A stretch of DNA of 64,000 nt. Source: Thermochromatium tepidum ATCC 43061 (GTDB lineage: Bacteria; Pseudomonadota; Gammaproteobacteria; Chromatiales; Chromatiaceae). Positions 3,268 through 62,522 of this stretch are shown piece by piece. The stretch lies in assembly GCF_009664085.1 (NCBI RefSeq), contig NZ_CP039268.1, positions 1,287,501 through 1,351,500 on the forward strand, given 5' to 3'. Every line of letters begins with the position of its first letter. The stretch's first letter is position 1. The position numbers were made by a program, and so were the translations under genes. Under the pieces are notes generated by a model. That model saw only the letters and a program-made list of their open reading frames with translations, was not told the DNA's origin and did no database searches.

Positions 3268-4341
3268 TCATTCCATTGAACTTGGGTCGAGCGAGAAGCG
3301 GGCGACATTGCCCTTGGTTCGCCCCTTGAGGTCAAAGGGACGACCGCCGACCGTCAATCGGGTCGCGGCAGTATTGCCGATGACGAACTTATAGGGTGGC
3401 TGGCCATCCAGCACGTGCCGATCCCCCCGGCGCATCTCTCCATTGAGGACCACGCGCCCGTTGGCCCCACGCACATCGACCCAGGAGGTTCCGGTGAATT
3501 CGAGAACGACCTCGGTGGAAGTTGGCACGGGGGCGGGTGCCTGCGGCACGGATTCGGCCCGAGTTTCCGTGTCCAAGGTCGCGTCTTCGTCTTCGGGCGT
3601 GCCCTGGGCACCCGTCAGCGAGCTGGCGGCGACGAGTGTCTCCGTGGGTGCCTGGAGGGGGGGCGCGGCGGGTCCGGTTGGGGTCATGCCGGTGGGTGTG
3701 TGGGATTGAGCGCCGCGTAGCGGGATGCTCTCGGGAGGCGCCGTGATCGTCGTCCCCGGGCCGGCGGCAGAGGTCGGCGTCACGGCATTCATCGCCGCGG
3801 TTGCATTGGGCGTCGTCGAAGACGCCGTGGGGGCGGCGACCGCACTCGCGCTCGCTGTACCCTCGCCCTTGGGCGATAGTGCGAGTGTCTCAGATTGCAG
3901 CGCAGCATCGCGTTGTCCGCGCAGCCAAAGCGTGCTCACCCCAGCGACGAGACCAATCAGCAGCACCACGCTCACCCAAACCCAACGGTTGCCTCTGGAC
4001 GAATGCGCGGAATTGCTCGGGACGCTCGGCGCCTGACCCAGGCTGCCTTCACGCGCCGGCACCATGGCGCGATAGGCTGCGACAAGGGGCGTTGAATCGG
4101 TCCCCAGTAGTCTGGCGTAGTTCTTGATGTAACCGATGACGAACACGGGTGCTGGCAGACGCTCGTATTGATCGCCCTCGATCGCCTCCACCACGTGGCG
4201 TTGAAGGTGGAGTTGGGCCGCGACCCGCTCGATGTCGAGCTTACGCGACTCCCGCAGTGCCCGCAGTCGGCGACCCGGGGTGTCGTTTGGATCCAGCATC
4301 TTGGGATCGTCTGACGGCGTGGTGTTGATCGATGGAGTCAT
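3268..4341 (-). CDS. rodZ: Cytoskeletal helix-turn-helix protein RodZ
   Basis: RodZ links MreB to the elongasome and helps set rod shape. An N-terminal Cro/CI-type helix-turn-helix (RLRALRESRKLDIERVAAQL and onward) is followed by one membrane helix (WVWVSVVLLIGLVAGVSTLW), a low-complexity Pro/Thr/Ala stretch and a C-terminal beta domain of the DUF4115 type ending near FDLKGRTKGNVARFSLD. The frame is open from a GTG at 4365. I prefer the ATG at 4341, but neither has a clear ribosome binding site and an ATG further in is also possible. Membership of the pilW-rodZ-hisS operon supports the call. Confidence 0.9.
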   Translation of the reverse strand: MTPSINTTPSDDPKMLDPNDTPGRRLRALRESRKLDIERVAAQLHLQRHVVEAIEGDQYERLPAPVFVIGYIKNYARLLGTDSTPLVAAYRAMVPAREGSLGQAPSVPSNSAHSSRGNRWVWVSVVLLIGLVAGVSTLWLRGQRDAALQSETLALSPKGEGTASASAVAAPTASSTTPNATAAMNAVTPTSAAGPGTTITAPPESIPLRGAQSHTPTGMTPTGPAAPPLQAPTETLVAASSLTGAQGTPEDEDATLDTETRAESVPQAPAPVPTSTEVVLEFTGTSWVDVRGANGRVVLNGEMRRGDRHVLDGQPPYKFVIGNTAATRLTVGGRPFDLKGRTKGNVARFSLDPSSME

Positions 4342-4447
4342 GGCGTGATCAATGGTCGGTATCACTTGAATTGGACGGTTTGTCGAACTGGCCGGCGACG
4401 AGTGCCAAGCTCGGCCCGGTCGTTCTTAATCCTAACTAATGTGTCGT

Positions 4448-5236
4448 CTAGGGGACGCGACCCGGCTTCGTCGAGTCGGAGAAGCTCTTGTTTAATACAT
4501 CCTGATAGAAGGCAGCACGCTTGCGATTGCCGAGCGCGCGTTCGGCCTCGAGACCGACCTGGAGCGCAATGCGCGAGACGGCGGGTGTGCGAACCGTCTC
4601 TGGCTTGAAATAGCGGTCGATGTAGTCCTTGGCGGCCTTGGCATCGCCGCGCTTCATTTTCAGCTCGGCGAGCTTGGCCAGCGGGGCACCAAAGTTGGGG
4701 TTCGCTTGGATGGCCGCGCGGTAATAGTCCTCGGCCTTGGTCGTGTCGCCCGCCTCGACGGCGCAGTTGCCGGCGTTGGTCAGGGCGATCCAGGGCGTGG
4801 CATAGACGGGATTAGCGGCGGCCTTGACGAACTGTGCATCGGCTTCAGTGTAGCGGCGCTGATTGCACAGGAAGGAGCCATAGGCATTGAGCACATCCGG
4901 ATTGTTCGGGGCAAGTCGTGTGGCGTACTCATAGTGTTTGGCGGCCTCGTCGGTTTGCTTTAGCTGTTCGAACAGGAAGGCCAGCCAGACGTGTGCCGGC
5001 GCATATTTGGAATCGGTCTTGACGGCCTGCTGGGCGCGGCGCAGGGCAACCTCGGTCTGGCCCAGTCGTTGGTATTCCTTGGCCAGATCGACATAGAGCT
5101 TGGCCGGACTATCATCTTGGGTCAGGCCCAGTTCCTCGTCGCCTGTCTTCAGGGACGACTTGCCGCCACAGGACGACAGCGCCAGGCAGAGACCAAAGAC
5201 CATGGAGTGTCTTGGATCGATGCGCTTTGTATTCAT
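4448..5236 (-). CDS. pilW: Type IV pilus biogenesis/stability lipoprotein PilW (PilF)
   Basis: PilW/PilF is an outer-membrane lipoprotein made of tetratricopeptide repeats that helps PilQ secretin assemble. The product has a short signal with a lipobox-like LALSSC, then about six TPR units (for example [20 protein letters not shown]). The start is the ATG at 5236, which overlaps the rlmN stop as ATGA and indicates translational coupling. The frame is open further upstream inside rlmN, but that extension has no signal-peptide character. rlmN-pilW-rodZ order is conserved in Gammaproteobacteria. Confidence 0.92.
5233..5236 (-). other. ATGA stop/start overlap coupling rlmN to pilW
   Basis: On the minus strand the rlmN stop TGA and the pilW start ATG share bases in ATGA. 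This fixes the pilW start and suggests termination-reinitiation coupling. Confidence 0.85.
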
Positions 5237-6330
5237 CGCGCCTCCAGCCTTTCCTTGAACTCGATTCGGACGCGCCCGCACCGTCCGGTGCGATCCCGAA
5301 CGCGCCCGACCAGTTGGCCGCAGGCGGCGGCGATCTCGTCGCCGCGGGTCTTACGTGTCATGGCAAAGAGGCCGGAGCGCACGAGACGTGCGCGGAAGGT
5401 CTCGACCCGCTCTGGCGGCGAGGTGCCGAAATCGCTGCCGGCGAATGGGTTGAAGGGAATCAGATTGACCTTGGACGGCACGCCTTCGAGCAGACGGATG
5501 AGCTGTTTGGCGTGCGTCGGGCTGTCGTTGATGCCGTCGAGCATCACATATTCCCAGGTGATCTTGCGCCGCTTATCGCCTGCGACATAGTGTTTGCAAG
5601 CAGGGATCAGCTCAGCGAGTGGATACTTGCGGTTGATCGGCACCAGCACGTCGCGCAGGGCATCGTTCGGTGCATGCAACGAGACGGCCAGCGAGACGTC
5701 GCTGACCTCGCGCAGCCGGTAGATGTTGGGTACGATGCCCGAGGTGCTCAGGGTCACACGCTGCTTGGCCAGCATATAGGCCAGATCGTCCTGCATGATG
5801 TCCATGGCCCTGACCACGGGCTCGAAGTTGGCCAGCGGCTCGCCCATGCCCATCATGACCACGTTGGTTGGCGCGACGCCGAGCCGCCGCGTGGCCTGCC
5901 AAACCTGACCGATGATCTCGGCAACGCTCAGGTTGCGGTTGAAGCCCTGGCGCGCGGTGGCGCAGAAGGCGCACTCGAGCGCGCAACCGACCTGAGAAGA
6001 CACGCACAGGGTGCGGCGCTTGCCCTCAGGGATGAACACGGTCTCGATCCGCTGTCCGTCGTCCAGTTCCAGCACCCACTTGACGGTGCCGTCGGCGGAC
6101 GGGTGGGTCTCAAGGATGCGCGGCAGCCGGATCTCGACCGTATCGCGCAGGGCTAAGCGCAGGCGCTTGGGTAGATCGGTCATGGCGTCGAAGTCGACGA
6201 CGCCATGCTTGTGCATCCACTTGAAGAGATTGCGGCCATGGAACGCCTTAAAACCGAGCGCCGTCACCAGCGACTCGCAACCTGCGAGGTCGAGGTCAAG
6301 CGGATTGGGTCTGGCCGAGGTGGCGCTCAT
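5233..6330 (-). CDS. rlmN: Dual-specificity 23S rRNA/tRNA adenine-C2 methyltransferase RlmN
   Basis: RlmN is a radical-SAM enzyme that methylates C2 of A2503 in 23S rRNA and A37 in some tRNAs. The 365-residue product contains the CxxxCxxC cluster motif as Cys116, Cys120 and Cys123 (CALECAFC), the [10 protein letters not shown] segment and a C-terminal AAACGQL that carries the second catalytic cysteine. It is followed directly by pilW with a 4-base overlap and preceded by ndk. Length and motifs are complete. Confidence 0.97.
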
Positions 6331-6350
6331 GGCGGTCCTGATCGTCTCGA

Positions 6351-6779
6351 TCAGCGGGTACGGGGGCAGACGCCCTCGGGGAAGAAGAAGGCGATCTCGA
6401 CGGCGGCGTTCTCCGGCGAGTCCGAACCGTGCACGGCGTTCTCGGTGAAGGAGTCGGCGAAGTCGGCGCGGATGGTACCGGGCGCGGCCTGGGCCGGGTT
6501 GGTGGCACCCATGATCTTGCGGTTCTTGGCCACGGCATCCTCACCTTCCAGCACCTGGACCATCACAGGGCCGGAGATCATGAAGTCAACCAGTTCGTCG
6601 AAAAAGGGCTTGCCCTGATGGATGGCATAGAAGGCGCTGGCCTGCTCACGGCTCATGTGCAGCATGCGCGCGGCGACGATCTTGAGTCCGGCGGCCTCAA
6701 AACGGCTGAGGATGGCGCCGATGGCGTCCTTGGCGACGGCGTTCGGCTTGATGATGGAAAGGGTGCGCTCAATAGCCAT
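6351..6779 (-). CDS. ndk: Nucleoside diphosphate kinase
   Basis: Ndk transfers the gamma phosphate between nucleoside tri- and diphosphates through a phospho-histidine. The 142-residue product shows the family signature [10 protein letters not shown] with catalytic His117 and the N-terminal [12 protein letters not shown]. An AGGAG ribosome binding site lies a few bases before the ATG. It is the first visible gene of the minus-strand ndk-rlmN-pilW-rodZ-hisS-yfgM-bamB operon, so the operon promoter probably lies in 6780-6920. I do not see a convincing -35/-10 pair there. Confidence 0.97.
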
Positions 6780-6920
6780 GCGGGCTCCTAACGAAATGGG
6801 GCGGCGTTTGGTAACGAGGGTTTTGGAGTTGGAATTCGACGCGAATTAGAACGCTGTCGAGAGGCGGCTGGTTCGGTCCGAACGTGGACGGTCCGATGGA
6901 TTCCAGCGGCATCTGTGTTC

Positions 6921-7180
6921 GTTGACATCCTCCCAGGCCAGAAGGCCGGAGATTCCTACGGCGCTTTAAGGCGCGGCATTGCGCCACACCTTAAAGTCGC
7001 TTCGATGGGTTCCTGGACCGAGTGCGCAACCGCTGCTCGTCTCTCCACAGGCGTGACTTCCGGCGTGCCCCGCCGTCGGTCGCCTTGGGTATCGGCGACA
7101 ACATGATTGTAGGACGGCTGCGCCGTCCGCGCGATCCTTCCCTGACCTTCAGGCCGAGGCTTGTCGCGCACCGGGTCAAT
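6921..7180 (-). mobile_element. Reduced IS200/IS605 (IS1341-type) element: left end, TnpB tail, right end
   Basis: Read on the minus strand, this 260-base block starts with TTGACCCGGTGCGCGAC and ends with a hairpin followed by GGGAGGATGTCAAC. That is the typical right end of IS1341-type elements. Between them lies a frame ending GTPEVTPVERRAAVAHS then QEPIEATL, which looks like the disordered C-terminal tail of TnpB. All catalytic parts of TnpB are gone. In this family the tnpB 3' end plus right end is the region that encodes the omega RNA. Related blocks occur at 26066-26220, 26677-26806 and 38962-39012. Nothing else is recognisable in the 545-base gap between ndk and the next gene. Confidence 0.7.
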
Positions 7181-7324
7181 CCACTAAGTCTAATGGTAGC
7201 GGTCTGGTCGGGCAATGGCGCGATGCTGGGATCTCGGCCCAAGTGTCGTCGGGTCGCCCTGGCTACAGGTGTCACCCGGCGATGGTGCGATCTCCTGATA
7301 TACAGGATACAGGTAGAGATTTGA

Positions 7325-8281
7325 ATGAGCCGATACGATGTTTTCAATGGCGATGCCGATGGACTCTGTGCCCTGCATCAATTAAGGCTGATCGAGCCGA
7401 TCGAGAGCCGACTCATAACCGGCCCCAAGCGCGAGATCGATCTGCTGGCCCGCGTTCCTGTGGATCAGGCCGAGTCTGTGACCGTGCTCGACATCGCGAT
7501 GGAGAAGAATGCCGCGGCACTGTGCGCCCTGCTGGAGGCCGGCGTGCCTGTCACTTATTTCGATCATCATTTTCCAGGCGAGATTCCAAGGCATCCGGGG
7601 TTGAGTGCCTATCTGGACATGCGGCCCGAGACCTGTACCAGTCTGCTGGTCGATGCCTTTCTCGCTGGACGGGCGCGCGCCTGGGCCGTGGTCGGAGCCT
7701 TCGGCGACAACCTCGATCATGTGGCGCGCCAGGTCGCCGAATCGCTGGGGCTGGATGCGCCCGAGATCGAGTGTCTACGCGAACTGGGGATCTGTCTCAA
7801 CTACAATGGTTACGGTCTCAGTATCGAGGATCTGCACCTTGCGCCGGATGCACTCTATCGGTGCCTCCAGCCTTACGCGAATCCGTTGGACTTTATCAAC
7901 GAAGAGACTGCCTTTGCGCGACTGTGTGATGGATATGCCGACGACATGGCGCGCGCGCGTGCCCTCAGGCCCGAGTACGAGGACGCCAAGCACCGTCTCG
8001 TGATTCTGCCGGACGCCTCCTGGGCACGGCGCGCGAGCGGCACCTATGCCAACGAATTGGCTTGGGCGGCACCCGAGAAGGCGCATGCCATCCTCACGCG
8101 CCTGAGCACAGGTGGCTTTCTGATCAGTGTCCGCGCCCCGGTGGCGCGTCCTCGGGGTGCCGACCAGCTCTGCCGTCGCTTCCCGACCGGAGGCGGGCGC
8201 GCGGGCGCAGCCGGTATCAATCATCTGCCCGAGGCCGATTACGACGCCTTTTTGGAGGCATTCCGCACGGCCTTCGCCTGA
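7325..8281 (+). CDS. DHH-family phosphoesterase
   Basis: The N-terminus has [10 protein letters not shown] (residues 8-17), and the eponymous Asp80-His81-His82 sits in YFDHHFPGE. The C-terminus carries a glycine-rich [14 protein letters not shown] resembling the substrate-binding part of the DHHA1 domain. DHH proteins are metal-dependent phosphoesterases acting on phosphodiesters such as pAp, nanoRNA or cyclic dinucleotides. At 318 residues it is close to NrnA length, but the spacing of motifs does not let me name the substrate. It precedes prfB on the same strand, with 91 bases between. Confidence 0.75.
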
Positions 8282-8372
8282 GTGAGGCTCCGATATTCGC
8301 GCTTTGCAATCACTGGAAAGGCCCTGTGACGGCAGGATATGATTTCAATTTTTTACCCGGCTTGGATCTCTC

Positions 8373-9471
8373 ATGCTTGACATCAATCCGATCGCCCATC
8401 AAATCGCTGATCTTAAGGGACGCGTCGAGTCCCTCAGGGGGTATCTTTGACTACGCCGAACGCAGGGATCGGCTGACCGAGGTCCTGCGCGAGCTGGAGG
8501 ATCCCAACATTTGGAACGATCCGGCCCGCGCCCAGGCACTCGGACGCGAGCGCGCGGCGCTGGAGGCCGTGGTGCTCAGGCTCGACGAGCTGAACGGCGC
8601 GCTGGCCGACGCCGACGACCTGCTCGCGCTCGCCGCCGAGGAGTCCGACGAGGCGACGCTTGAATCTCTGGTCGCCGATCTCAAGAACTATGAATCGCGC
8701 GTGTCTGAACTCGAGTTTCGGCGCATGTTCTCTGGCGAGATGGATGCTTGCAATGCCTTTCTCGACATCCAGGCCGGCTCGGGTGGCACCGAGGCCCAGG
8801 ATTGGGCGGAGATGCTGCTTCGCATGTATCTGCGCTGGGGTGAGCGACGCGGCTTCAAGACCGAGCTGATGGAGGTCTCGGCGGGCGAGGTCGCCGGTAT
8901 CAAGTCGGCGACCGTCAGGTTCGAGGGCGACTATGCCTTCGGCTGGCTGCGCACCGAGATCGGTGTGCATCGTTTAGTGCGCAAGTCGCCCTTCGACTCA
9001 GGTAACCGACGGCATACGTCCTTCGCCTCGGTGTTCGTCTCGCCCGAGGTCGACGACTCGGTCGAGATCGAAATCAACCCAGCGGATCTGCGCATCGATG
9101 TCTATCGGGCCAGTGGTGCCGGCGGCCAGCACGTCAACCGCACCGAGTCGGCGGTGCGCATCACCCATCTCCCCACAGGGATCGTGGTCCAGTGTCAGAA
9201 CGACCGTTCGCAGCACAAGAACAAGGATCAGGCGATGAAGCAGCTCAGGTCCAAACTCTACGAGTTGGAGATGCAGAAACGTCGCGCCAGTCAGCAGGCC
9301 CTGGAAGACAGCAAGTCCGATATCGGTTGGGGCAGCCAGATCCGTTCCTATGTGCTCGACCAGTCGCGCATCAAGGATCTGCGCACTGGGGTGGAGATCG
9401 CCAATACCCAAGCTGTACTCGACGGCCATCTCGACCCCTTCATCGAAGCCAGCCTCAAGAGTGGACTCTGA
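8373..9471 (+). CDS. prfB: Peptide chain release factor 2 (programmed +1 frameshift)
   Basis: RF2 recognises UGA and UAA and triggers peptide release. The start is ATG at 8373. Codons 1-25 end at an in-frame TGA (8448-8450), and translation continues in the +1 frame from GAC at 8449, giving join(8373..8447,8449..9471) and 365 residues. The second part contains the tripeptide anticodon SPF (about residues 204-206) and the catalytic GGQ at residues 250-252 ([12 protein letters not shown]). Length matches the family. The long open frame running upstream from 8062 is not used, because it lies inside the DHH gene. Confidence 0.97.
8435..8451 (+). promoter_or_regulatory. RF2 autoregulatory frameshift site
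   Basis: AGGGGGTATCTTTGAC (8436-8451) contains the internal Shine-Dalgarno-like AGGGGG, the slippery CTT and the UGA stop followed by C. It matches the classical bacterial prfB site. When RF2 is scarce the ribosome slips +1 at CTT and completes the protein. Confidence 0.96.
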
Positions 9472-9491
9472 CCCCCGGTACACGCGAGATC

Positions 9492-9626
9492 GAACCGCTA
9501 GAGAAGCAAAGGGCGCGAAGAATTTGAGTGGCCGTCCGTAAAAGTTGGAGGCGGTCGTCTGCAAACTGTCTCCTTGGTGCACCAAGGACCCACAGTCAAT
9601 CGGCGCCCTTTGCACCTTTGCGGTTC
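9492..9626. repeat. MITE-like element with terminal inverted repeats and a central palindrome
   Basis: The gap between prfB and lysS holds two inverted arms. GAACCGC (9492-9498) and GCAAAGGGCGC (9506-9516) pair with GCGCCCTTTGC (9603-9613) and GCGGTTC (9620-9626). In the middle lies an exact 18-base palindrome TCCTTGGTGCACCAAGGA (9571-9588). There is no open frame of note and no T-run, so it is not an obvious terminator. It could be a miniature transposable element or a structured leader of lysS. Confidence 0.5.
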
Positions 9627-9651
9627 CAACATTTAGCCTTCAGGAAACCGC

Positions 9652-11172
9652 ATGGAGACCAATCCCAATTCGACTACCGCCGAGGCGCTCGATGAGAACA
9701 AACTGATCGCCCAACGGCGCGAGAAGCTGGCGCGGCTGCGCGAGCGTGGCAATGCGTTCCCAAACGATTTCCGGCGCGATGCCCTGGCCGGAGACCTCTT
9801 GGCTCAGTACGAGGCGCTGGAGGCCGAGGAACTCGAGAGGCGTGCGGTGCGTGTCAAGCTGGCCGGACGGCTGATGACGCGGCGCATCATGGGCAAGGCA
9901 AGCTTTGCGCATATCCAGGACATGTCGGCGCGCATCCAGATCTTTGTCCAGCGCGACCGGGTGGGCGAGGAAGCCTATGAGGATTTCAAGCGCGAGCTGG
10001 ATCTCGGCGACATCCTCGGCGTCGAGGGCCAGGTGTTCAAGACCAAGACCGGGGAGCTCTCGGTGCGCTGTGAGGCGATCCGGCTGCTGACCAAGGCGTT
10101 GCGCCCCTTACCGGAGAAGTTTCATGGTTTAACCGACATGGAGCTCCGCTATCGGCAACGCTATCTGGATCTGATCATGAACAGCAGCACGCGTGAGATC
10201 TTCCGTGTGCGGGCCGCGATCGTGCAGTTCATCCGCGACTATCTCAATGGTCGCGGCTATCTTGAAGTCGAGACGCCGATGATGCAGGTGATTCCGGGCG
10301 GTGCAGCGGCGCGGCCCTTCATTACACATCACAACGCGCTCGACATGCCGCTCTTTCTGCGCATCGCGCCCGAGTTGTTTCTCAAGCGTCTGGTGATTGG
10401 CGGGTTCGAGAAGGTCTATGAGATCAATCGTAATTTCCGAAACGAAGGGCTATCGACCCGGCACAACCCCGAGTTCACCATGCTGGAGTTCTACGAGGCC
10501 TATGCCGACTATCAGGATCTGATGGATCTGACTGAGGACATGCTGCGTCGCATGGCGACCACGATCCTGGGGACCACCCAGATCCGCTATCAGGGCGCGA
10601 CCTATGATTTTGGGCGACCCTTTGCGCGGCTGAGCGTGCGCGAGGCGATCCTTAAGTTCAATCCCGATCTGACGGCGGTGGACGTCGATGACCGCGATCG
10701 CCTGCGCACGGCGGTCGAGCGTCATGGCGTCGTACCCAAGCCGAGCTGGGGTCTGGGCAAGTTGCAGCTCGAACTCTTCGAGCAGACGGTCGAGGGCCGG
10801 CTGATGGATCCGACCTTCATCACCCGCTATCCGACCGAGGTCTCACCGCTGGCGCGGCGTAACGATGAGGACCCCTTTGTCACTGATCGTTTCGAGCTGT
10901 TCGTCGGCGGGCGCGAGATCGCCAACGGCTTCTCGGAGCTCAACGACGCCGAGGATCAGGCCGCTCGTTTCCGTGCCCAGGCGGCCGCGAAGGAGGCCGG
11001 CGATCAGGAGGCCATGTACTATGATGCCGACTATATCCGCGCCCTGGAGTACGGGCTGCCACCGACGGCGGGTGAGGGCATCGGCATCGACCGCTTGGTG
11101 ATGCTCTTGACCGACTCGCCCTCGATCCGCGACGTGTTGCTGTTCCCGCACATGCGTCCTGAGTCGGTTTAG
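9652..11172 (+). CDS. lysS: Lysyl-tRNA synthetase (class II)
   Basis: The 506-residue product has an N-terminal OB-fold anticodon-binding domain followed by the class II catalytic core. Motif 2 ([20 protein letters not shown]), the [13 protein letters not shown] segment and motif 3 ([20 protein letters not shown]) are all present. It charges tRNA-Lys in the cytoplasm. prfB-lysS adjacency is common in Gammaproteobacteria. Here a MITE-like repeat separates the two. It converges with ygfZ, and the two stop codons overlap. Confidence 0.98.
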
Positions 11173-41252: not shown

Positions 41253-42314
41253 TTGCTGGGGATCTTGGCCGCCGGCGCGATCCTGGTCCTCGAGCATACC
41301 GCCCCCCTGGCCTGGGGGCTGGCGGTACTGCTGCCTGGGCTCGCCAGCCTGCTGGCGCTCGCCCAGGGGCGTGCCCATCAGGCCGAACTCGCCAGGGTCA
41401 GGGCCGAGGCCGGGCTCCAGATCGATTACCAGACGCGCCAGCTCCAGGCCTGGGAGCACGCCTTCGAGCGTCTGGCCATCGAGCTCTTCCCCATCTTGGT
41501 GCGCCACATCGAACACGCGCGTCAGCTCACCGAGCAGAGCATCACTCAGTTGTCGCATTCCTTCAGCGCCCTCGTCAGCGACCTGGAGGCGGTGATCGCG
41601 ACCACTCAGTCGGACGACCCCCAGGATCAGGCCGTCCTCCGCCAGTTCGAGCAGAGCCGTGCGACCCTAAAAGAGGTGATCGCCGACTTCGAGTCCATCC
41701 TGCATCGTGAGTCGTCCATGATCGAGCAGGTCGATCATCTGACCGGCTTTGGTGAGCAGATGCGCCAGATGGCCCAGGACGTGCGATCGGTCGCCGAGCA
41801 GATCAATCTCCTGGCGCTCAATGCCGCGATCGAGGCGGCGCGCGCCGGTGAGCAGGGACGCGGTTTCGCAGTCGTCGCCGACGAGGTGCGCAAGCTGGCC
41901 GGTTCATCGGCCAACACGGGCGCGCGCATCAGCGCCAAGGTTGAGGAGCTAGCGCGCTCGCTGGCCCAAACCCAATCGATGGTTAAATCCTCGATATCAA
42001 GCGCCGATGAGATGGTGCGCGAGTCCGAGCGCAAGGTCGAGGCGGTCATGGATCGTTTGCATCAGACCGCCGCCGCCCTCGACGCCGAGGCGCAGCGTCT
42101 GCGCGCCCTGGGCGCCGATATCCGTACCCGCATCACCGCCTCGCTGGTGGATCTCCAGTTCCAGGACCGCACCAGTCAGGTGTTGGCGCATGTCTGCGAG
42201 GCATTGGAACGCCTGAGCGAGCGTCTGCGGACCACAGCCCAGCATGACCTGAGCGAACAGGAACGCGATCTCCTAGAGATCGACGGACTCCTGGCCCGGA
42301 TGCTCGACTCCTAA
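41253..42314 (+). CDS. Short methyl-accepting chemotaxis protein without sensor domain (N-terminus probably frameshifted)
   Basis: Two membrane helices near the N-terminus ([13 protein letters not shown] and [15 protein letters not shown]) are followed by a coiled-coil linker and a chemoreceptor signalling tip ([20 protein letters not shown]). There is no periplasmic domain and no clear HAMP. The only in-frame start is TTG 41253, which cuts the first helix. A better start is GTG 41194 with AGGGGG seven bases upstream. It encodes [12 protein letters not shown] in another frame, and one extra G in the run at 41227-41230 would join the two. It heads the che cluster. Confidence 0.8.
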
Positions 42315-42411: not shown

Positions 42412-42783
42412 ATGGCGAAGACGATCATGGTGGTCGATGATTCAGCCTCCTTTCGCAGTGTGGTGGGGATTGCGCTCAGGGGCGCAGGCTATGAGGTGAT
42501 CGAGGCCTGCGACGGGCGTGATGCCCTGGCCAAGCTGGATGGGACCATCAAGGTGCATCTCATCATCAGTGACGTAAACATGCCCAACATGGATGGCATC
42601 ACCCTGGTCAGCGAGATCAAGAAGCTGCCCAATTACAGGTTTACGCCGATCCTGATGCTGACCACCGAGAGTCAGCCCGAGAAAAAGGAGGCCGCGCGTG
42701 CAGCCGGGGCCAAGGCCTGGCTGGTCAAGCCCTTCCAGCCGCCGATGCTGCTGGATGCCGTATCCAAGCTGATATTGCCCTGA
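42412..42783 (+). CDS. CheY-like single-domain response regulator
   Basis: The 123 residues form one receiver domain. Asp9 and Asp10 (VVDDS) form the acidic pocket, Asp54 in ISDVNMPNMDG is the phosphoacceptor, Thr84 lies in LMLTTE, and Lys106 in LVKPF. It probably receives phosphate from the neighbouring CheA and acts on the flagellar switch or as a phosphate sink. AGGAAA lies upstream of the ATG. It is the second gene of the chemotaxis cluster. Confidence 0.93.
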   Translation: MAKTIMVVDDSASFRSVVGIALRGAGYEVIEACDGRDALAKLDGTIKVHLIISDVNMPNMDGITLVSEIKKLPNYRFTPILMLTTESQPEKKEAARAAGAKAWLVKPFQPPMLLDAVSKLILP

Positions 42784-42823
42784 GCGGCGGGTTGTTTAGG
42801 CACTCGAATCCAGGAGCTTGAAG

Positions 42824-43144
42824 ATGGACGCCCAACCAGACTGCCCCGATCAACTGCGACTGACCGGTGAGCTGACCATCTATACCGTTGCCGAGATCCT
42901 GACACGCCTGCGCGCCCCCTTGGCCGAGCATCCCGTCTTGGCGTTGGACCTGTCCGAGGTCACCGAGCTCGATGGGGCCGGGTTGCAGCTCCTGCTGTGG
43001 CTGCGCGAGACGGCGCGCGCCCGCGGCAGTGCGCTGCATCTGGTCGCGCCGAACCCAGCGGTGCGCAGGGTCATCGAGCTGCTTCAGCTCCATAACAGGT
43101 TCGACCTCGATGCCGCCGACGCGGCGGCGGGGGGCGGCGCATGA
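42824..43144 (+). CDS. STAS-domain protein of the che cluster
   Basis: The 106 residues fit the STAS fold of anti-sigma-factor antagonists, with ALDLSEVTELDGAGLQLLLW holding the region that is phosphorylated in SpoIIAA (here Asp-Gly-Ala rather than Ser). Small STAS proteins before cheA are common in proteobacterial chemotaxis operons, but their role is poorly known. The start is ATG 42824 with AGGAG seven bases upstream. The stop overlaps the cheA ATG as ATGA. Confidence 0.85.
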   Translation: MDAQPDCPDQLRLTGELTIYTVAEILTRLRAPLAEHPVLALDLSEVTELDGAGLQLLLWLRETARARGSALHLVAPNPAVRRVIELLQLHNRFDLDAADAAAGGGA

Positions 43145-44718
43145 GCCTGGATACGGCCCATCAGGCCTTTCTCACCGAGGTCGCTGAGCTGCTCCACTCC
43201 ATGGAAGAGGCGCTCTTGACCCTGGAGGACGACCCTGCAGATCCCGAGGCGCTCAATGAGGTCTTCCGGGCCATGCATACCATCAAGGGCACTGCCGGTG
43301 TGTTCGGCTATGAGGCCATCGTCGCCTTCACCCATGCCGTCGAGACCCTGATGGAGCAGGCGCGCTCGGGCCAGATACCCTTGACCCGGCCGCTGATCGC
43401 GACCCTGCTTGAGTGTCGCGACCACACCACACGGCTCGTCGATGCCGTCACCACGGGGTCTGCACCGGATGCACCGCTCGATCCAGAGCTCGCGGACGCC
43501 GGCGCGGCCTTGCTGGCACGGCTCGGGCCGGCCTCTGGCAAGGGGGCGGAGGCCGCCGCTGGTGGCGGGATCCGCCTAGACCCGGGTCAGCAGGCACACC
43601 GCGCGGCGGAGGCCAGCCAGCTGCCGGTCACCAGCGACCTCTGGATGATCACGCTCAGGTTCAAGCGCGACGCCTTTCGCAACGGCATCGATCCGCTGTC
43701 CTTCCTGCGCTATCTGGGGTCGCTCGGCGAGCTGGTCTATGTGACCACCCAGCTCGACCCCGAGGCGCTGCGCGAGGGTGGCTTTGACCCCGAGAGCTGC
43801 TATCTCGAGTTTGGCATCGGCTTTCGCGGCGAGGCCGATCGGGCGACCCTGGCCGGGGTGTTCGAGTTCGCCGATCAAGACTGCGAGATCCGGATTCTCG
43901 AACCCGATACGGCCCAGTCGAAATACCTGGATCTGCTCGCAGACGTGCCCGACGATCAGATCGGCTGGATCGGCGACCTCTTGGTCCAGATCGGTGCCCT
44001 GACCCAACGCGAGCTCCAGCGCGCCCTGGAGACGCAACTGGCCGAGGCCGAGACCGAATCCAGGCGCCGCCGTCTGGGAGAGATCCTGGTGGAACAGGGG
44101 GTCGTCAAGCCGGCGGTGGTCGAGCAGGCGGTACGTACCCAGGAGGCCGCACGGACCCGGCGTCAGGAGGAGACGCGCTTCATCCGGGTCGATGCCCAGC
44201 GCCTGGGGCATCTGATCGACCTGATCGGTGAGCTGGTCACCAGCAGCGCCGCGATCCGGGTCCTCATCAAGCGTGCCGGGATCGAGGATATCAACGAGGT
44301 GGTCGATGGCGTCGAGTATCTGGTCTCCGAGATCCGCGACAATGCCCTCCAGCTGCGCATGGTGCCGATCGGCGAGTCGCTGTCGCGTTTCAAGCGCGTG
44401 GTCCGCGATGCCAGTCGCGAGCTCGGCAAGGAGATCGAGCTGGTCATTACTGGCGGCGAGACCGAGCTCGACAAGACTGTGGTCGAGAAGCTGATCGACC
44501 CGCTGACCCATCTGATCCGCAACGCCGTTGACCACGGTATCGAGACGCCCGAGGTGCGGCGCGCACGCGGCAAGCCGGCTCAGGGCCGGGTGCGCATCAA
44601 TGCCCATCACGATTCGGGCCATATCGTGGTCGAGATCGCCGACGACGGTGCCGGACTCGATGGACGCCGAACACAGCAGGCGACACCAGGGCGGACACTA
44701 CATCAATCTGCGCGGTGA
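43141..44718 (+). pseudogene. cheA: Chemotaxis kinase CheA, broken inside the ATPase domain
   Basis: The N-terminal Hpt domain is intact, with phospho-accepting His46 in AMHTIKGTAG. A middle region, the dimerisation helices (FIRVDAQRLGHLIDLIGELV) and the start of the histidine-kinase ATPase follow, with the N box [11 protein letters not shown] and the G1-like [10 protein letters not shown]. After about codon 507 the reading frame is lost and the protein ends in the unrelated [17 protein letters not shown]. The rest of the ATP lid, the G2 box and the CheW-like domain are absent from this frame. The CheW-like tail appears in the next frame (44660 onward). As shown, this kinase cannot bind ATP or dock to receptors. 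Confidence 0.85.
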
Positions 44719-46711
44719 GGTGCTGCCCTTCATCCGTTTGACCGAACTGTTCGAGAACGCTGGCCCAGAGCGGCACACCGGTCGGCGCGAAAGCCTGGTG
44801 GTGGTGCGCTTCGGTCATCACAAGATGGGGCTGGTGGTGGATCGGTTGCTCGGCGAGCTACAGACCGTCATCAAACCGCTCGGCAAGGTCTTTGAGCGAC
44901 TGCGCGGTGTGGCCGGTGCCACCATCCTGGGTACGGGCGATATCGCCTTGATCCTGGATGTCGCGGAGTTGGCGGCCATCGCCGAGGGGCAGCGTGATCG
45001 TCGCCCGGCCAGGGGCATCAAGGCGACCACAGAGGGTCTGGCCACCCTCATCGCCGAGGTTAAAAACGCCGAACGGCTCAAACTCTTGCACACGGCTCAG
45101 GAGCATATCGACAGCTACGCCAAGGGTGTCGAACGGGTCATCGGCTTGCTTCGCGAACGCAATCGGCTGGTCAATCTCGAGATGCCTAAGACCGGGGGCG
45201 AGGTCGAACAGGCCCTCACCGAGATCTGGGACCAGGCCAATCGCACTCAGGACCTGGAGATGGCGACCCAAGCGACCCTGGCGCTGCGTCATCTGCTGAT
45301 TGCGCGCATCTATGTGCGTTACTTCGTCGATAACAACGCCATGTCGCATGTCGAGCGCGTGCGTCAGGAGTGGGCCGGGTTACAGGAGAGGCTCACCCAG
45401 CTCGACCGGGGATTGACCAATCCCGAGCAACGCCGCCGATTCGAGACCGCGCTGCGGGGTCAGAACGACTATCGGGGCCAGTTCGAGCTCCTGGTCAAGA
45501 CCATCCTCGAACAGAATGAGATCGTCACCACGACGCTCGATGCCTTGGGTCCGAAGTTTGCCAGTCTGCTCCAAGAGGTCAGACACCAATACCTCGCCGA
45601 GCAGAATGAGCTTGGCCCCAAGGTGCAGGCGGCCAATGCCCGCGCCGTGGTCATCATCTCAGTATTGTCGCTGTTCGCTGTCCTGCTCGGCGTCCTGATC
45701 GCCTGGCTGATCATCCGCAGCGTCATGGCGCAGTTGGGCCATGATCCGGGCGTGATCGCCGAGGTGACCAAACAGGTCGCGGCCGGCAATCTCGCCATCG
45801 ACTTCGATCAGACCAGGTTGCGCGGTGTCTATAAAGACATGTCCGCCATGGTTGAGCGCCTGCGCCAGGTGGTCAGCGAGGTCCGAGCCGGTGCCGACAA
45901 TCTGAGCAGCGCCTCGAGCCAGGTCAGTTCGACGGCGCAGGCGCTCAGTCAGGGTGCGACCGAGCAGGCGGCAAGCGTGGAGGAGACCACGGCGAGCATC
46001 GAGCAGCTCAATGCCTCGGTGCAGCAGAACACCGAGAACGCGCGTGTGACGAATGGCATCGCCAGGAGCTCGGCTGAGGAGGCGCGTCGCGGCGGTGAAG
46101 CGGTGGCACGCACGGTGGCGGCGATGAAGGAGATCGCAAGCAAGATCGGGCTGATCGAGGACATCGCCTACAAGACCAACCTGCTCGCCCTCAACGCCGC
46201 CATCGAGGCAGCACGGGCGGGTGAACACGGCAAGGGCTTTACAGTGGTCGCTGCCGAGGTGCGCAAGCTGGCCGAGAATAGTGGCCTGACCGCCCAGGAG
46301 ATCAACCAGTTGGCCACCAACAGCGTGGCGATCGCCGAGGAGGCCGGGAGGCTCTTGGAACAGATGGTGCCCAATATCGTCAAGACCGCGGACCTGGTGG
46401 AGGAGATCACGGCAGCCTCCAACGAGCAAGCGGCAGGGATTGCGCAGATCAACGAGGCGATGAATCAGCTCGACAAGGCGACTCAGCAGAACGCCTCGGC
46501 CTCGGAGGAGCTGGCGGCGACGGCCGAGGAACTCAGCGGCCAGGCCGGCCAATTGCAAGAGACCATGGGCTTTTTCCGGTTGGGGACGGGGGGGTCGCGA
46601 CCCGCGAGCCGAAGGCCGGCGCCAGCGCCGGCAGGGGGGCGAGGGCGGTCGGAGCCAGTCGATACCGTGGCGCTCGAGACCTTCGACCACCAGGACTTCG
46701 AACGCTTCTGA
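44660..46711 (+). CDS. Chimera: CheA CheW-like C-terminus joined to a chemoreceptor lacking its N-terminus
   Basis: From ATG 44660 the first 110 residues are the second half of a CheA CheW-like domain ([40 protein letters not shown]). From roughly residue 120 (near [20 protein letters not shown]) it becomes a chemoreceptor. That part has a helical ligand-binding region, one membrane helix ([20 protein letters not shown]), a HAMP-like part and a complete signalling tip ([20 protein letters not shown]). TM1 of the receptor is missing. The frame is open throughout. It looks like the product of two deletions; it could equally reflect misassembly. Confidence 0.7.
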
Positions 46712-46721
46712 GGGTGGGATC

Positions 46722-47279
46722 ATGGGCGAGTTGGTTCTGAGTAACCGCGCGAGCACCGCCGCTCATACCGAGTCCAGCGACGAAGTCACCCAGTATCTGA
46801 TCTTCACCGTGTCCGACGAGCGGCTGGCCATGTCGATCGACGCCGTCAAAGAGATCATCGAGACCCCGGCCATCACCCGCGTGCCCATGACCCCGGACTA
46901 TATCCGCGGCGTGATCAATCTGCGCGGCAATGTCGTTCCGGTGATCGATCTCGGGGCGCGCCTGGGACGCGGCCCGATTACCCCGACCAAGCGCAGTTGC
47001 ATCGTGCTGGTCGAGGTCCATGCCGGCGACGAGTCCCATGTGCTCGGGATGCTGGTCGATGAGGTCAAGGACATCCTTGAGATCGCGCGCGAAGACATCA
47101 AACCGCCGCCCGAGTTCGGCTCCGAGATCCGTACCGACTTCATCGAGGCCATGGGGCGGGTCGAGGACATCTTCGTCATCATCCTCAGCGTCGATCATGT
47201 GTTGTCCATGCAGGAGCTGGCCGCCCTGCGTCGATTCAGTCAGGAGACGCCCGCAGGCGGCACGGATGGCGAATCCTGA
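46722..47279 (+). CDS. cheW: Chemotaxis coupling protein CheW
   Basis: CheW couples receptors to CheA. One CheW domain (residues about 22-165) shows YLIFTVSDERLAMSIDAVKE, the conserved RGVINLRGNVVPVIDL and MLVDEVKDILEI. A GAGGGTGGG ribosome site lies before the ATG. The C-terminus overlaps the cheR start. At 185 residues it is a little longer than typical because of short extensions at both ends. Confidence 0.95.
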   Translation: MGELVLSNRASTAAHTESSDEVTQYLIFTVSDERLAMSIDAVKEIIETPAITRVPMTPDYIRGVINLRGNVVPVIDLGARLGRGPITPTKRSCIVLVEVHAGDESHVLGMLVDEVKDILEIAREDIKPPPEFGSEIRTDFIEAMGRVEDIFVIILSVDHVLSMQELAALRRFSQETPAGGTDGES

Positions 47280-48138
47280 AGGATCGCGCGCCCGCGCCTG
47301 TGTGATGCAGCCACCGGATGTCGTACCGCTCAAGGAGCGCGAATTCGAGCGGTTGCGTCGTTTCATCCACGAGCAGACTGGCATCTGTCTGGCACCGCAC
47401 AAGCGCCAGATGGTCAGTGCCCGCCTCCAACCGCGCTTGCGTCAGCTGGGGCTTCCTAGCTTCGCTGCCTATCTCGACCATGTCTTTGCGCCCGGGCACG
47501 AACCTGAACGCCAACATCTGATCGATCTGCTGACCACCAACGAGACCTACTTCTATCGCGAGCCGGCGCACTTCGACTATCTGCGCGAGCATGTCCTGCC
47601 GGACTATCGCGGACGTGAGTTGCGGTTGTGGAGTGCGGCCTGCTCGACTGGGGAGGAGGTCTACACCCTGGCCATGGTCTTGAGCGACGCCCTGGGGATG
47701 GGCGATTGGCGTGTCCTCGGTACCGACATCAGCCAGCGGGTGCTGGAGCAGGCGCGCCAGGGCATTTACCCGCTTGAACGCGCCCGCCACCTGCCGCGCC
47801 ATTGGTTGGAGCGCTACTGTCTTAAGGGTGTACGCACCCAGGCGGGCAAGCTCCTGATCGACCCCAGACTCAAATCGCGGGTGAGACTGGAACAGCACAA
47901 CCTGCTGCAATCGCGCCGCGAGGGTGAGCGCTTCGACATCATTTTTCTGCGCAACGTGTTGATCTATTTCGATCTGCCGACCAAGCAGCGCGTCATCGAC
48001 CTGATATTCGAGTCGCTGCGTCCCGGCGGTTGGTTGTTCATCAGTCACGTCGAATCGCTGCATGGGATTGATACCCCGCTTGTCATGATCCGTCCCTCGA
48101 TCTTTCAGCGTCCGAGCACGCGCCGAGGTGCACCATGA
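47266..48138 (+). CDS. cheR: Chemotaxis protein methyltransferase CheR
   Basis: CheR methylates receptor glutamates with SAM. The N-terminal helical domain (FERLRRFIHEQTGICLAPHK) and the SAM-binding domain (LRLWSAACSTGEEVYTLAM; FDIIFLRNVLIYFD; GGWLFISHVESL) are complete. ATG 47266 lies within the end of cheW, so the two overlap by 14 bases; an ATG at 47305 is an alternative. The stop overlaps the cheD start as ATGA. Confidence 0.95.
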   Translation: MANPEGSRARACVMQPPDVVPLKEREFERLRRFIHEQTGICLAPHKRQMVSARLQPRLRQLGLPSFAAYLDHVFAPGHEPERQHLIDLLTTNETYFYREPAHFDYLREHVLPDYRGRELRLWSAACSTGEEVYTLAMVLSDALGMGDWRVLGTDISQRVLEQARQGIYPLERARHLPRHWLERYCLKGVRTQAGKLLIDPRLKSRVRLEQHNLLQSRREGERFDIIFLRNVLIYFDLPTKQRVIDLIFESLRPGGWLFISHVESLHGIDTPLVMIRPSIFQRPSTRRGAP

Positions 48139-48737
48139 GTCCGGAGTCAATCCCGGCGAAAGGGATCAAGCGTCATCTGGTGCAACCCGGCGAATACAGG
48201 GTCACCAGCGAGCCGGTGATCCTGACGACCTTGCTGGGTTCGTGCGTCTCGGTCTGTCTGTTCGATCCGGTCGCGCGCCTGATGGGCATGAATCATTTCC
48301 TGCTGCCGATGCGCAATCCGGCCAGCCGCGAGCCGGTGCTGGCTACAGAGGCTGGACGCTATGGCGTCTGGGCGATGGAGTTGCTCATCAACGACCTGCT
48401 CAAGCATGGCGCACACCGCGAGCGGCTGCGCGCCAAGGCCTTCGGCGGTGCCAATGTCCTGTACGAGGCCAAGGACGCGCGACAGGATCGCTTCAATATC
48501 GGCGAGGCCAACCTGAAGTTCGTGCGTCAGTTCCTAAAGGACGACGGGATCCCCCTGGTCGCTCAGGATCTCGGTGGACGGCATGGACGCCAGATCCATT
48601 TCTACGGTGGGGATTATTCGGTGTTCTTGCGCCGGATCCCGCGTGCCAGGATAGAGCGGATCCTGAGCGACGAGCAGCACTATCTGCAAAACGCCACGAC
48701 GGATAGGCCGCCGGGTGCGCCGGCGGAGTTCTTTTGA
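48135..48737 (+). CDS. cheD: Chemoreceptor glutamine deamidase CheD
   Basis: CheD deamidates receptor glutamines. The catalytic Cys is in LLGSCVSVCLFDP and the His in MGMNHFLLP, with KAFGGANVL and the sheet HFYGGDYSV-like end visible. The 200-residue length is normal. It is coupled to cheR by ATGA and followed by cheB. Confidence 0.94.
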   Translation: MSPESIPAKGIKRHLVQPGEYRVTSEPVILTTLLGSCVSVCLFDPVARLMGMNHFLLPMRNPASREPVLATEAGRYGVWAMELLINDLLKHGAHRERLRAKAFGGANVLYEAKDARQDRFNIGEANLKFVRQFLKDDGIPLVAQDLGGRHGRQIHFYGGDYSVFLRRIPRARIERILSDEQHYLQNATTDRPPGAPAEFF

Positions 48738-48808: not shown

Positions 48809-49927
48809 ATGACTATCAATGTGTTGATCGTGGACGACTCGGCCGTCGTTCGCCAGGTGCTCACCGAACAACTTTCTTCTATACCCGGCCTCAAAGTCAT
48901 GGGCGCTGCACGCGATCCGCTGTTTGCGCGCAAGCTAATGGAAACACAATGGCCGGATGTCATCGTGCTCGACATCGAGATGCCGCGCATGGACGGCCTG
49001 ACCTTTCTGCGCCAGCTCATGGCCGAGCGCCCGACCCCGGTCATCATCTGCTCGACCCTGACCGAGCAGGGTGCCGCAATCACCTTGCAGGCGCTCAGTG
49101 CCGGCGCCGTGGACATCATCGCCAAGCCCAAGATTGGGCTGCGCCAGTTCCTGGAAGATTCCAAGACCCTACTCGGTGATGCCGTCAAGGCCGCGGCTCA
49201 GGCACGCCTGGATCAGGTCTCAGTTGAGTTGCGTGCCAAACCAGTCATGACGCCCACACCGAAACTCTCGGCCGATGCGGTGCTCGCCGAGCGCAGCGCG
49301 ACCCCGATCGCCGGCCTGACCGAGCGCGTGGTGGCCATCGGCACCTCGACCGGAGGCACCCAGGCGCTCGAATATGTGCTCACCCGTCTGCCGCGGACCA
49401 CCCCCGGGATCGTCATCGTCCAGCACATGCCAGGTCAGTTCACCGCCGCCTTTGCCGCACGCCTCAATCAGCTCTGCCCGATCGAGGTGCGCGAGGCACG
49501 CCCTGGCGACCGCGTCATCCCCGGACTGGCCCTGATCGCGCCCGGCACGGATCATCTGCTATTGCGCCGCAGCGGCGCCCAGTATCGGGTCGAGGTCAGG
49601 GGCGGACCCCTGGTCAGCCGCCATCGCCCCTCGGTCGATGTGCTCTTTCGCTCCACCGCCCAGGCGGCCGGACCCAATGCGGTCGGCATCATCATGACCG
49701 GAATGGGCGACGACGGCGCGCGCGGGCTGCTGGAGATGCACCAGGCCGGCGCCCTGACCATCGCCCAGGACGAGCAGAGCTGTGTCGTCTATGGGATGCC
49801 CAAGGAGGCGGTCAAACTCGGTGCGGTGGATGCCGTAGTCAGCCTCTCCGCCATCCCCGAGATCGTCGCCCAGGCGCCGACCCGCCTGGCCTACAAGCGC
49901 CTACAGGGGACCTCCGGTCCCGGATGA
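48809..49927 (+). CDS. cheB: Chemotaxis response regulator protein-glutamate methylesterase CheB
   Basis: CheB removes methyl groups from receptors when phosphorylated. The receiver domain has VDDSAVVRQ and phosphoacceptor Asp in [12 protein letters not shown]. The C-terminal methylesterase has the catalytic triad in [12 protein letters not shown] (Ser), [12 protein letters not shown] (His) and [11 protein letters not shown] (Asp). Length 372 fits. It closes the plus-strand che cluster and converges with a chemoreceptor gene 12 bases on. Confidence 0.96.
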
Positions 49928-60980: not shown

Positions 60981-61244
60981 TGGAGACTGAACCTCAGTTA
61001 TGGTCGGCGAGTGTGCAATGCATACCGGCGGTGTGGATTGGCCGTTCCATCAGACTGACTCAGTGTCTACACCCCAAACAGGAGTGACGCTGACGTCCTA
61101 AGCCTTGCGGGTGCGGCCAGCGCCGTCCTCTCCAGAGGCACGACAGGCCGACTATCAGTTAGCCTAAGCCTCTAGGGAAGGCAAAATGACTATTATTGAA
61201 AATTCTGATTACCGCGACTCACCCAATCCACCCAGGGAGCATCC
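60981..61244. other. Intergenic region between Sel1 gene and metY
   Basis: No open frame or RNA gene is supported. The last 60 bases before metY are AT-rich (ATGACTATTATTGAAAATTC) and may hold its promoter. I see no clear SAM riboswitch or MetJ box array. Confidence 0.4.
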
Positions 61245-62522
61245 ATGAAGCTTGAAACTCTGGCCATCCACGCTGGTTTTGAGCCCGACCCAACCACCAA
61301 AGCGGTGGCTACGCCGATCTATCAAACCACCAGCTACGCCTTCGACGACACCCAGCATGGCGCGGATCTGTTCGACCTCAAGGTGGCTGGCAATATCTAT
61401 ACGCGCATCATGAACCCAACCACAGAGGTGCTCGAACGGCGTGTGGCGGCCTTTGAAGGGGGAGTGGGTGCCCTGGCCCTGGCCTCGGGCATGTCGGCCA
61501 TAACCACGGCGATCCTGACCTTGGCCCAGGCGGGTGATAACATCGTCGCCGTCTCGACGCTCTATGGCGGCACCTATAATCTCTTCGCACACACCCTGCC
61601 ACGTCTGGGGATCCAGGTCCGTTTCGCCGCGCCCAACGACATCGAAGGCATGGCCGCGCAGATCGATGCGGGCACTCGGGCCGTCTTTTGCGAATCCATT
61701 GGCAATCCGGCGGGAAACGTCGCAGATATTGCCGCCCTAGCCGACATGGCGCACGCCCATGGCCTGCCGCTGATCGTCGACAATACCGTGCCTACCCCCT
61801 ATCTATGCCGACCGTTTGAACATGGCGCCGATATCGTGGTCCACGCGCTCACCAAATACATGGGTGGACATGGCACCAGCATCGGCGGCATTCTGGTTGA
61901 CTCGGGACGCTTCCCCTGGGCCGAACACGCCGAGCGCTTCTCGCTGCTCACCGAGCCGGACGTCTCTTACCATGGCGTGATCTATACCGAGACGATGGGG
62001 CAGGGGGCCTATATCGCGCGCGCCCGCGTTGTACCTTTGCGCAACATGGGGGCGGCCATCTCGCCGTTCAACAGCTTCCTGATCCTGCAGGGCATCGAGA
62101 CGCTGCCGGTGCGCATGGACCGGCATTGCGAAAATGCGCTTGCTGTCGCCAATTATCTCAAGGGGCATCCGCAGGTGGCCTGGGTGCGTTATGCGGGACT
62201 GCCGGACAGTCCGGATTATCCGCTGATCCAGAGATACATGGATGGCGCAAAGGCAAGTTCCATTCTGTCGTTCGGCATCCAGGGCGGACGCGAGGCCGGT
62301 GCACGTTTCATCGATGCGCTCAAGCTCGTCGTGAGACTAGTCAATATCGGCGATGCCAAGACATTGGCCTGTCATCCGGCGACGACCACGCATCGCCAGT
62401 TGTCGCCCGATGAGCTGGCGCGCGCCGGCGTTTCGGAGGATCTCGTCAGACTCTCGATCGGTATCGAGCATGTCGACGACATCATTGCCGATTTGGATCA
62501 GGCGCTCGCGACGGCGGGCTGA
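61245..62522 (+). CDS. metY: O-acetylhomoserine sulfhydrylase (MetY)
   Basis: This PLP enzyme makes homocysteine from O-acetylhomoserine and sulfide; some members use O-acetylserine. The 425-residue product shows AIHAGFEPDPTTKAVATPIY, SGMSAITTAILTL, the Schiff-base lysine in VHALTKYMGGHGTSIGG and TLACHPATTTHRQL. AGGGAG precedes the ATG. Direct sulfide use would suit a sulfide-rich habitat (inference). Confidence 0.95.
   Translation: MKLETLAIHAGFEPDPTTKAVATPIYQTTSYAFDDTQHGADLFDLKVAGNIYTRIMNPTTEVLERRVAAFEGGVGALALASGMSAITTAILTLAQAGDNIVAVSTLYGGTYNLFAHTLPRLGIQVRFAAPNDIEGMAAQIDAGTRAVFCESIGNPAGNVADIAALADMAHAHGLPLIVDNTVPTPYLCRPFEHGADIVVHALTKYMGGHGTSIGGILVDSGRFPWAEHAERFSLLTEPDVSYHGVIYTETMGQGAYIARARVVPLRNMGAAISPFNSFLILQGIETLPVRMDRHCENALAVANYLKGHPQVAWVRYAGLPDSPDYPLIQRYMDGAKASSILSFGIQGGREAGARFIDALKLVVRLVNIGDAKTLACHPATTTHRQLSPDELARAGVSEDLVRLSIGIEHVDDIIADLDQALATAG

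Follow-up and report, generated by a model that had tools for sequence, protein, structure and literature searches.

In the assembled sequence of Thermochromatium tepidum ATCC 43061, an accessory chemosensory operon has very probably undergone a genuine and probably recent pseudogenisation. A microhomology deletion of about 335 bp appears to have destroyed the kinase of the operon, and a second rearrangement appears to have damaged its receptor (MCP), joining the 3' remnant of cheA to an MCP without a start or first transmembrane helix. Judged from its sequence, the truncated CheA (no ATP lid, G2 box or full CheW-like domain) would be unable to autophosphorylate or to enter a receptor array; it would pass no phosphate to the operon's CheY and CheB, and the cell would rely on its other CheA proteins. 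The T. tepidum genome (G000) is closed in one contig of 2,958,290 bp, and the window, the whole stretch of 64,000 nucleotides that was analysed, is G000:C1:1287501-1351500. The HiPIP encoded in this genome matched chain 1eyt_A at all 83 of 83 residues, and PMC7889895 gives that chain as the HiPIP of T. tepidum, which confirms the species. The features of the operon, in window positions, were as follows.

41253-42314, plus strand: mcpA, an MCP-like gene upstream, open
42412-42783, plus strand: cheY, open, 80-94% identical to orthologues
42818-43144, plus strand: STAS-like gene, open, labelled by eye
43141-44658, plus strand: cheA 5' remnant with Hpt (His46), middle region, dimerisation domain, and N box and G1 of the ATPase
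44658-44662, plus strand: first join, about 335 bp deleted at the 4-bp microhomology GATG (44659-44662), frame lost
44660-46711, plus strand: chimeric frame, in which the cheA 3' remnant continues in frame into an MCP that lacks its start and first transmembrane helix
44663-45010, plus strand: cheA 3' remnant, roughly the last 95 of 138 CheW-like positions, native sequence
45011-45610, plus strand: MCP sensor remnant, no DNA match to five loci compared, grouping with MCPs of other genera
45611-46711, plus strand: second transmembrane helix and signalling domain of the MCP, native
46722-47279, plus strand: cheW, open
47299-48138, plus strand: cheR, open, start chosen within the frame 47020-48138, named by eye
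48135-48737, plus strand: cheD, open, named by eye
48809-49927, plus strand: cheB, open, named by eye

The cheA gene starts with the ATG at 43141 and reads like a CheA up to the G1 box DDGAGLD; about 20 codons then lead to a stop at 44716-44718, giving an open frame of 525 aa (43141-44718). The 5' remnant shared 60-80% amino-acid identity with seven orthologues. An Hpt domain (Pfam E = 9.6e-17), with the phospho-accepting His46 within MHTIKG, and a dimerisation domain (H-kinase_dim, 36.2 bits against a cut-off of 23) were detected in this frame. HATPase_c was matched at profile positions 4-51 of 111, with a score of 25 bits that lay below the curated cut-off of 26.4, and the CheW domain was found at positions 41-135 of 138 in the following, different frame. 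The intact orthologue at L015 (735 aa) matched HATPase_c at positions 4-110 of 111 and CheW at 2-135 of 138. A sequence-only reading had proposed an out-of-frame deletion within 44640-44720 in the ATP-binding domain, with CheA normal from Hpt to DDGAGLD, its next recognisable sequence the later CheW-like part in another frame, and an operon deprived of its kinase. All of this was borne out, the join lying inside that interval and neither frame holding a full ATPase or CheW-like domain. By eye, CheA residues ~265-345 (43930-44180), before the dimerisation domain, resembled the GspE/MshE N-terminal motif.

Ungapped comparison and a breakpoint scan sized the gap, as that reading had advised doing against relatives: 335 bases were missing relative to five of them (G001, G002, G004, G007 and G011), and ungapped comparison gave 332 relative to G003 and G005, in which the flanks were less similar. 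The number 335 is no multiple of three. The breakpoint interval against G002 was 44658-44662 and matched the common GATG, in agreement with the microhomology that had been suspected near 44660. Against G004, G007 and G001 the interval was shorter and lay at this position; for G003, G005 and G011, which had the most diverged flanks, mismatches displaced it. The alignment with four genus-mates showed a single gap at the join. About 106-112 residues were absent by comparison with relatives (more than 100 had been expected); the gap takes in the ATP lid and G2 box together with the beginning of the CheW-like domain. A CheA restored by frameshifting was ruled out, since no change of frame alone would bring back the roughly 110 missing residues. 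Relocation of the missing segment to another part of the genome was likewise ruled out, since all six matches were paralogues of at most 52% identity. Downstream of the join, the cheA 3' remnant (44686-45009) showed 86% DNA identity to G004.

The same operon was present in G001 (probably Allochromatium vinosum), G002, G003, G004, G005, G007 and G011, in the common order cheY, STAS, cheA, MCP, cheW, cheR, cheD, cheB, with an extra MCP in G005. In these genus-mates and G011 the CheA frame was open (728-864 aa in all seven), whereas in T. tepidum about 110 residues are gone and the frame is lost, the pattern of a pseudogene beside intact relatives. The stretch missing from T. tepidum was kept in all seven orthologues when compared base by base. 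Across the genus, the segment (query from G004) was found at 79% or more in six of eight genomes and was absent from T. tepidum and G006. The earlier reading had named a stable gene with the same joined arrangement in a close relative as the case against it; none occurred among the seven other genus genomes, six of which hold the segment, while G006 lost cheA by a different deletion. Among 19 genomes (own included), a clear orthologue with 63-82% identity was open in seven other than T. tepidum, and G018 had a more distant orthologue (42% identity) that was also open. Matches at 1e-90 or better were obtained in 24 of 116 family genomes (own included), two of them partial (G070 and G104), showing that the gene is patchy in the family. 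A four-gene tree placed G006 with G004 (support 82/72, weak), in which the cluster is open, and T. tepidum with G003 and G005 (90/98), in both of which cheA is open. The exact join sequence had no match in the contig collection scanned, a collection that may omit T. tepidum's own genome, and no report of the lesion was found among the matches listed from titles and abstract beginnings of the open-licence literature.

All other che genes had been taken as intact, which proved wrong for the MCP that follows cheA. The chimeric frame encodes 683 aa from the ATG at 44660 or 727 aa from a TTG at 44528, and its MCP part starts about 88 residues in (G001 numbering). In the G004 MCP the start and first transmembrane helix sit in the portion absent from T. 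tepidum; the MCP part of the T. tepidum frame had one strong hydrophobic stretch versus two in G004. What is left of a transmembrane MCP is thus its second helix and MCPsignal, with the start and first helix absent. The block from 45611 had 83% DNA identity to G004, continuous to 49999. From 45011 to ~45600 there was no DNA match to G001, G002, G004, G007 or G011, and matches resumed at 45598-45656; this comparison omitted G003 and G005, and G006 is without the region. At the protein level, in 50-column windows, the sensor half shared 24-42% identity with its counterparts in G001, G004 and G007, which were 67-86% identical to one another; around the second helix, identity to these three genomes was 72-76%. 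Identity to the same three was 84-100% in the signalling domain and 57-75% in the C-terminal tail. In a tree of 19 sensor rows (13 of the 19 other genomes with a match, together with G001, G002, G003, G004 and the first MCP of G005), the T. tepidum sensor grouped with G033, G116, G011, G041 and G088 (support 100/99), on a long branch (0.84) that makes its exact place unsure. A simple 345-bp deletion was set aside as an account of the second lesion because ~45011-45600 is unmatched in the five loci and the sensor groups with MCPs of other genera. For the same reasons, the second join resembles a rearrangement inside an MCP with a swapped sensor more than a plain deletion. In G005 (L018, ~6500-10762), two tandem MCP genes follow cheA, the first with an unrelated sensor.

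Around the operon, 28 frames conserved between G001 and G004 were compared with the window. Five were unmatched there, and one row with stops (61224-62471, minus strand) was removed from the count as the antisense shadow of a 425-aa plus-strand open frame. Of the 22 left, 20 gave a single unbroken match spanning 88% or more of the frame, the only exceptions being cheA and the following MCP, showing that the damage is local; a generally poor assembly was therefore not supported. The search of the rest of the genome for a second complete cheA, also advised earlier, revealed at least three, at 1239, 2415 and 2903 kb, each with Hpt, dimerisation, ATPase and CheW domains (Pfam). CheZ precedes the 2415-kb cheA and Flagellin_N had two matches in the genome, indicating that flagellar chemotaxis is probably retained. 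A further cheA-receiver hybrid at 1156-1158 kb (L020, G000:C1:1155500-1160500) carried two frameshifts and an internal TGA relative to a 778-aa open frame; four relatives carry it as an open frame of 743-778 aa. The frameshifts in this paralogue could be sequencing errors.

On the T. tepidum branch, the cheA 5' remnant had a dN/dS of 0.235, exceeding 10 of 12 non-che controls (which spanned 0.11-0.28), and the 3' remnant one of 0.054, lower than in all 12. These values gave no clear signal of relaxed selection in the cheA remnants, and no further stops were found in them. Prolonged decay is not clearly visible, and the lesion would be recent, a culture event or an artefact, three cases that dN/dS cannot separate. 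The values for cheW, cheR, cheB and cheY were 0.04-0.15; these genes still look constrained, and the remainder of the operon may therefore have kept some use. The ratio was 0.12 for mcpR, 0.14 for the MCP signalling part, 0.41 for cheD, 0.40 for STAS, 0.31 for mcpA and 0.62 for the non-orthologous MCP sensor.

The same cluster was also lost in G006. Its reaction-centre L (277 residues) and M (324 residues) chains were identical to 7vrj_L and 7vrj_M, and entry 7VRJ is given as deposited for Allochromatium tepidum (PMC9133646), which identifies G006 as that species. The cluster lies at 10196-13713 of L039 (G006:C1:1762001-1780000). Relative to G004, a deletion of about 5.9 kb (~4332-10185 of the oriented L015) begins early in STAS and ends late in cheR, leaving about 80 bp between cheY and the 34 C-terminal residues of cheR that remain. 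The mcpA gene has two in-frame stops near its 5' end, followed by a 301-aa open frame, and cheB changes frame near residue 230. The flanking genes are retained and, as in T. tepidum, cheA is lost while cheY and cheD are open. Identity to G004 was 93.8% downstream of the deletion and 84.5% upstream, and mcpA was nearest to G002 (tblastn matches kept at 55% or more gene coverage and 45% or more identity); the locus appears somewhat mosaic. A. tepidum has one ~5.9-kb deletion, the two mcpA stops and the cheB frameshift, whereas T. tepidum has two joins within cheA and MCP; because the breakpoints differ, independent loss in the two species is the simplest reading.

If a real chromosome with intact cheA and MCP had lost stretches in assembly or library preparation, two structural breaks within about 350 bp and cheA remnants free of decay would be readily understood. 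We nevertheless consider such an artefact improbable. An overlap-based assembler would not be misled by the common word at the first join, which measures only 4 bp; the second join has about 600 bp of divergent MCP sequence in place of native sequence, an outcome that simple collapse would not produce; and a second genome (G006) shows a different loss of the same cluster on a 3.2-Mb contig. Microhomology-flanked deletion is an ordinary mechanism, and the T. tepidum case is no different in principle: as in other bacterial pseudogenes of this kind, a few hundred bases were lost between short direct repeats. Somewhat less improbable, though still unlikely, is a join that is real and confined to the cultured strain and not the species, which in terms of sequence would be a sub-case of pseudogenisation. 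With one genome per species compared, amino-acid change is not clearly in excess in the cheA remnants, which would suit a strain-only event; however, the three separate lesions in the 1156-1158-kb paralogue indicate that chemosensory decay in the T. tepidum genome was not a single event.

It is very unlikely that both frames are translated into functional proteins, with a fragment of CheA serving as phosphodonor or decoy and a partial CheW-like domain substituting for the first helix of the MCP. Both frames are long and stop-free, the MCP signalling domain is conserved, and the second join is in frame with an ATG at 44660. Yet a complete ATPase or CheW-like domain is found in neither half, no obvious Shine-Dalgarno-like word precedes that ATG by eye, the arrangement is present in none of seven aligned relatives, and an in-frame join is expected by chance one time in three. 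Pseudogenisation of the operon is thus the reading that we prefer. The pathway would be under weak or no selection, since the cluster is destroyed by other lesions in A. tepidum and another cheA paralogue is broken in T. tepidum; that it has been lost in A. tepidum and occurs patchily across the family further suggests that it is dispensable.

T. tepidum is described as a Yellowstone hot-spring isolate that grows at up to 57 deg C (PMC9133646), and A. tepidum strain NZ as coming from a moderately thermal spring sample, with an optimum of 40-45 deg C (PMC10746008). The pathway is broken by different lesions in these two species, known here as hot-spring species, and CheA is intact in the other six of the eight genus species. 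The chance that two random losers among eight would both be the hot-spring species is 1/28, a post hoc figure in a set where growth temperatures of G003, G005 and G007 are not known. As a tentative suggestion, more doubtful than probable, the same accessory pathway may have been lost convergently as two lineages of the genus moved into hot springs, a link to heat drawn from two species; if true, hot microbial mats would be a setting where the sensed cue, or else the array itself, brings no benefit or does harm. For annotation, the frame 44528/44660-46711 should be treated as a cheA/MCP chimera, no new receptor class. An accessory operon with a broken cheA is nothing unusual on its own; the value here is comparative: two genomes of a small genus show different destruction of a pathway that close relatives keep. 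In these lineages one spare sensing pathway seems to be on its way out, and the comparison could be used to test which chemosensory pathway hot-spring phototrophs can dispense with, and perhaps for what reason.
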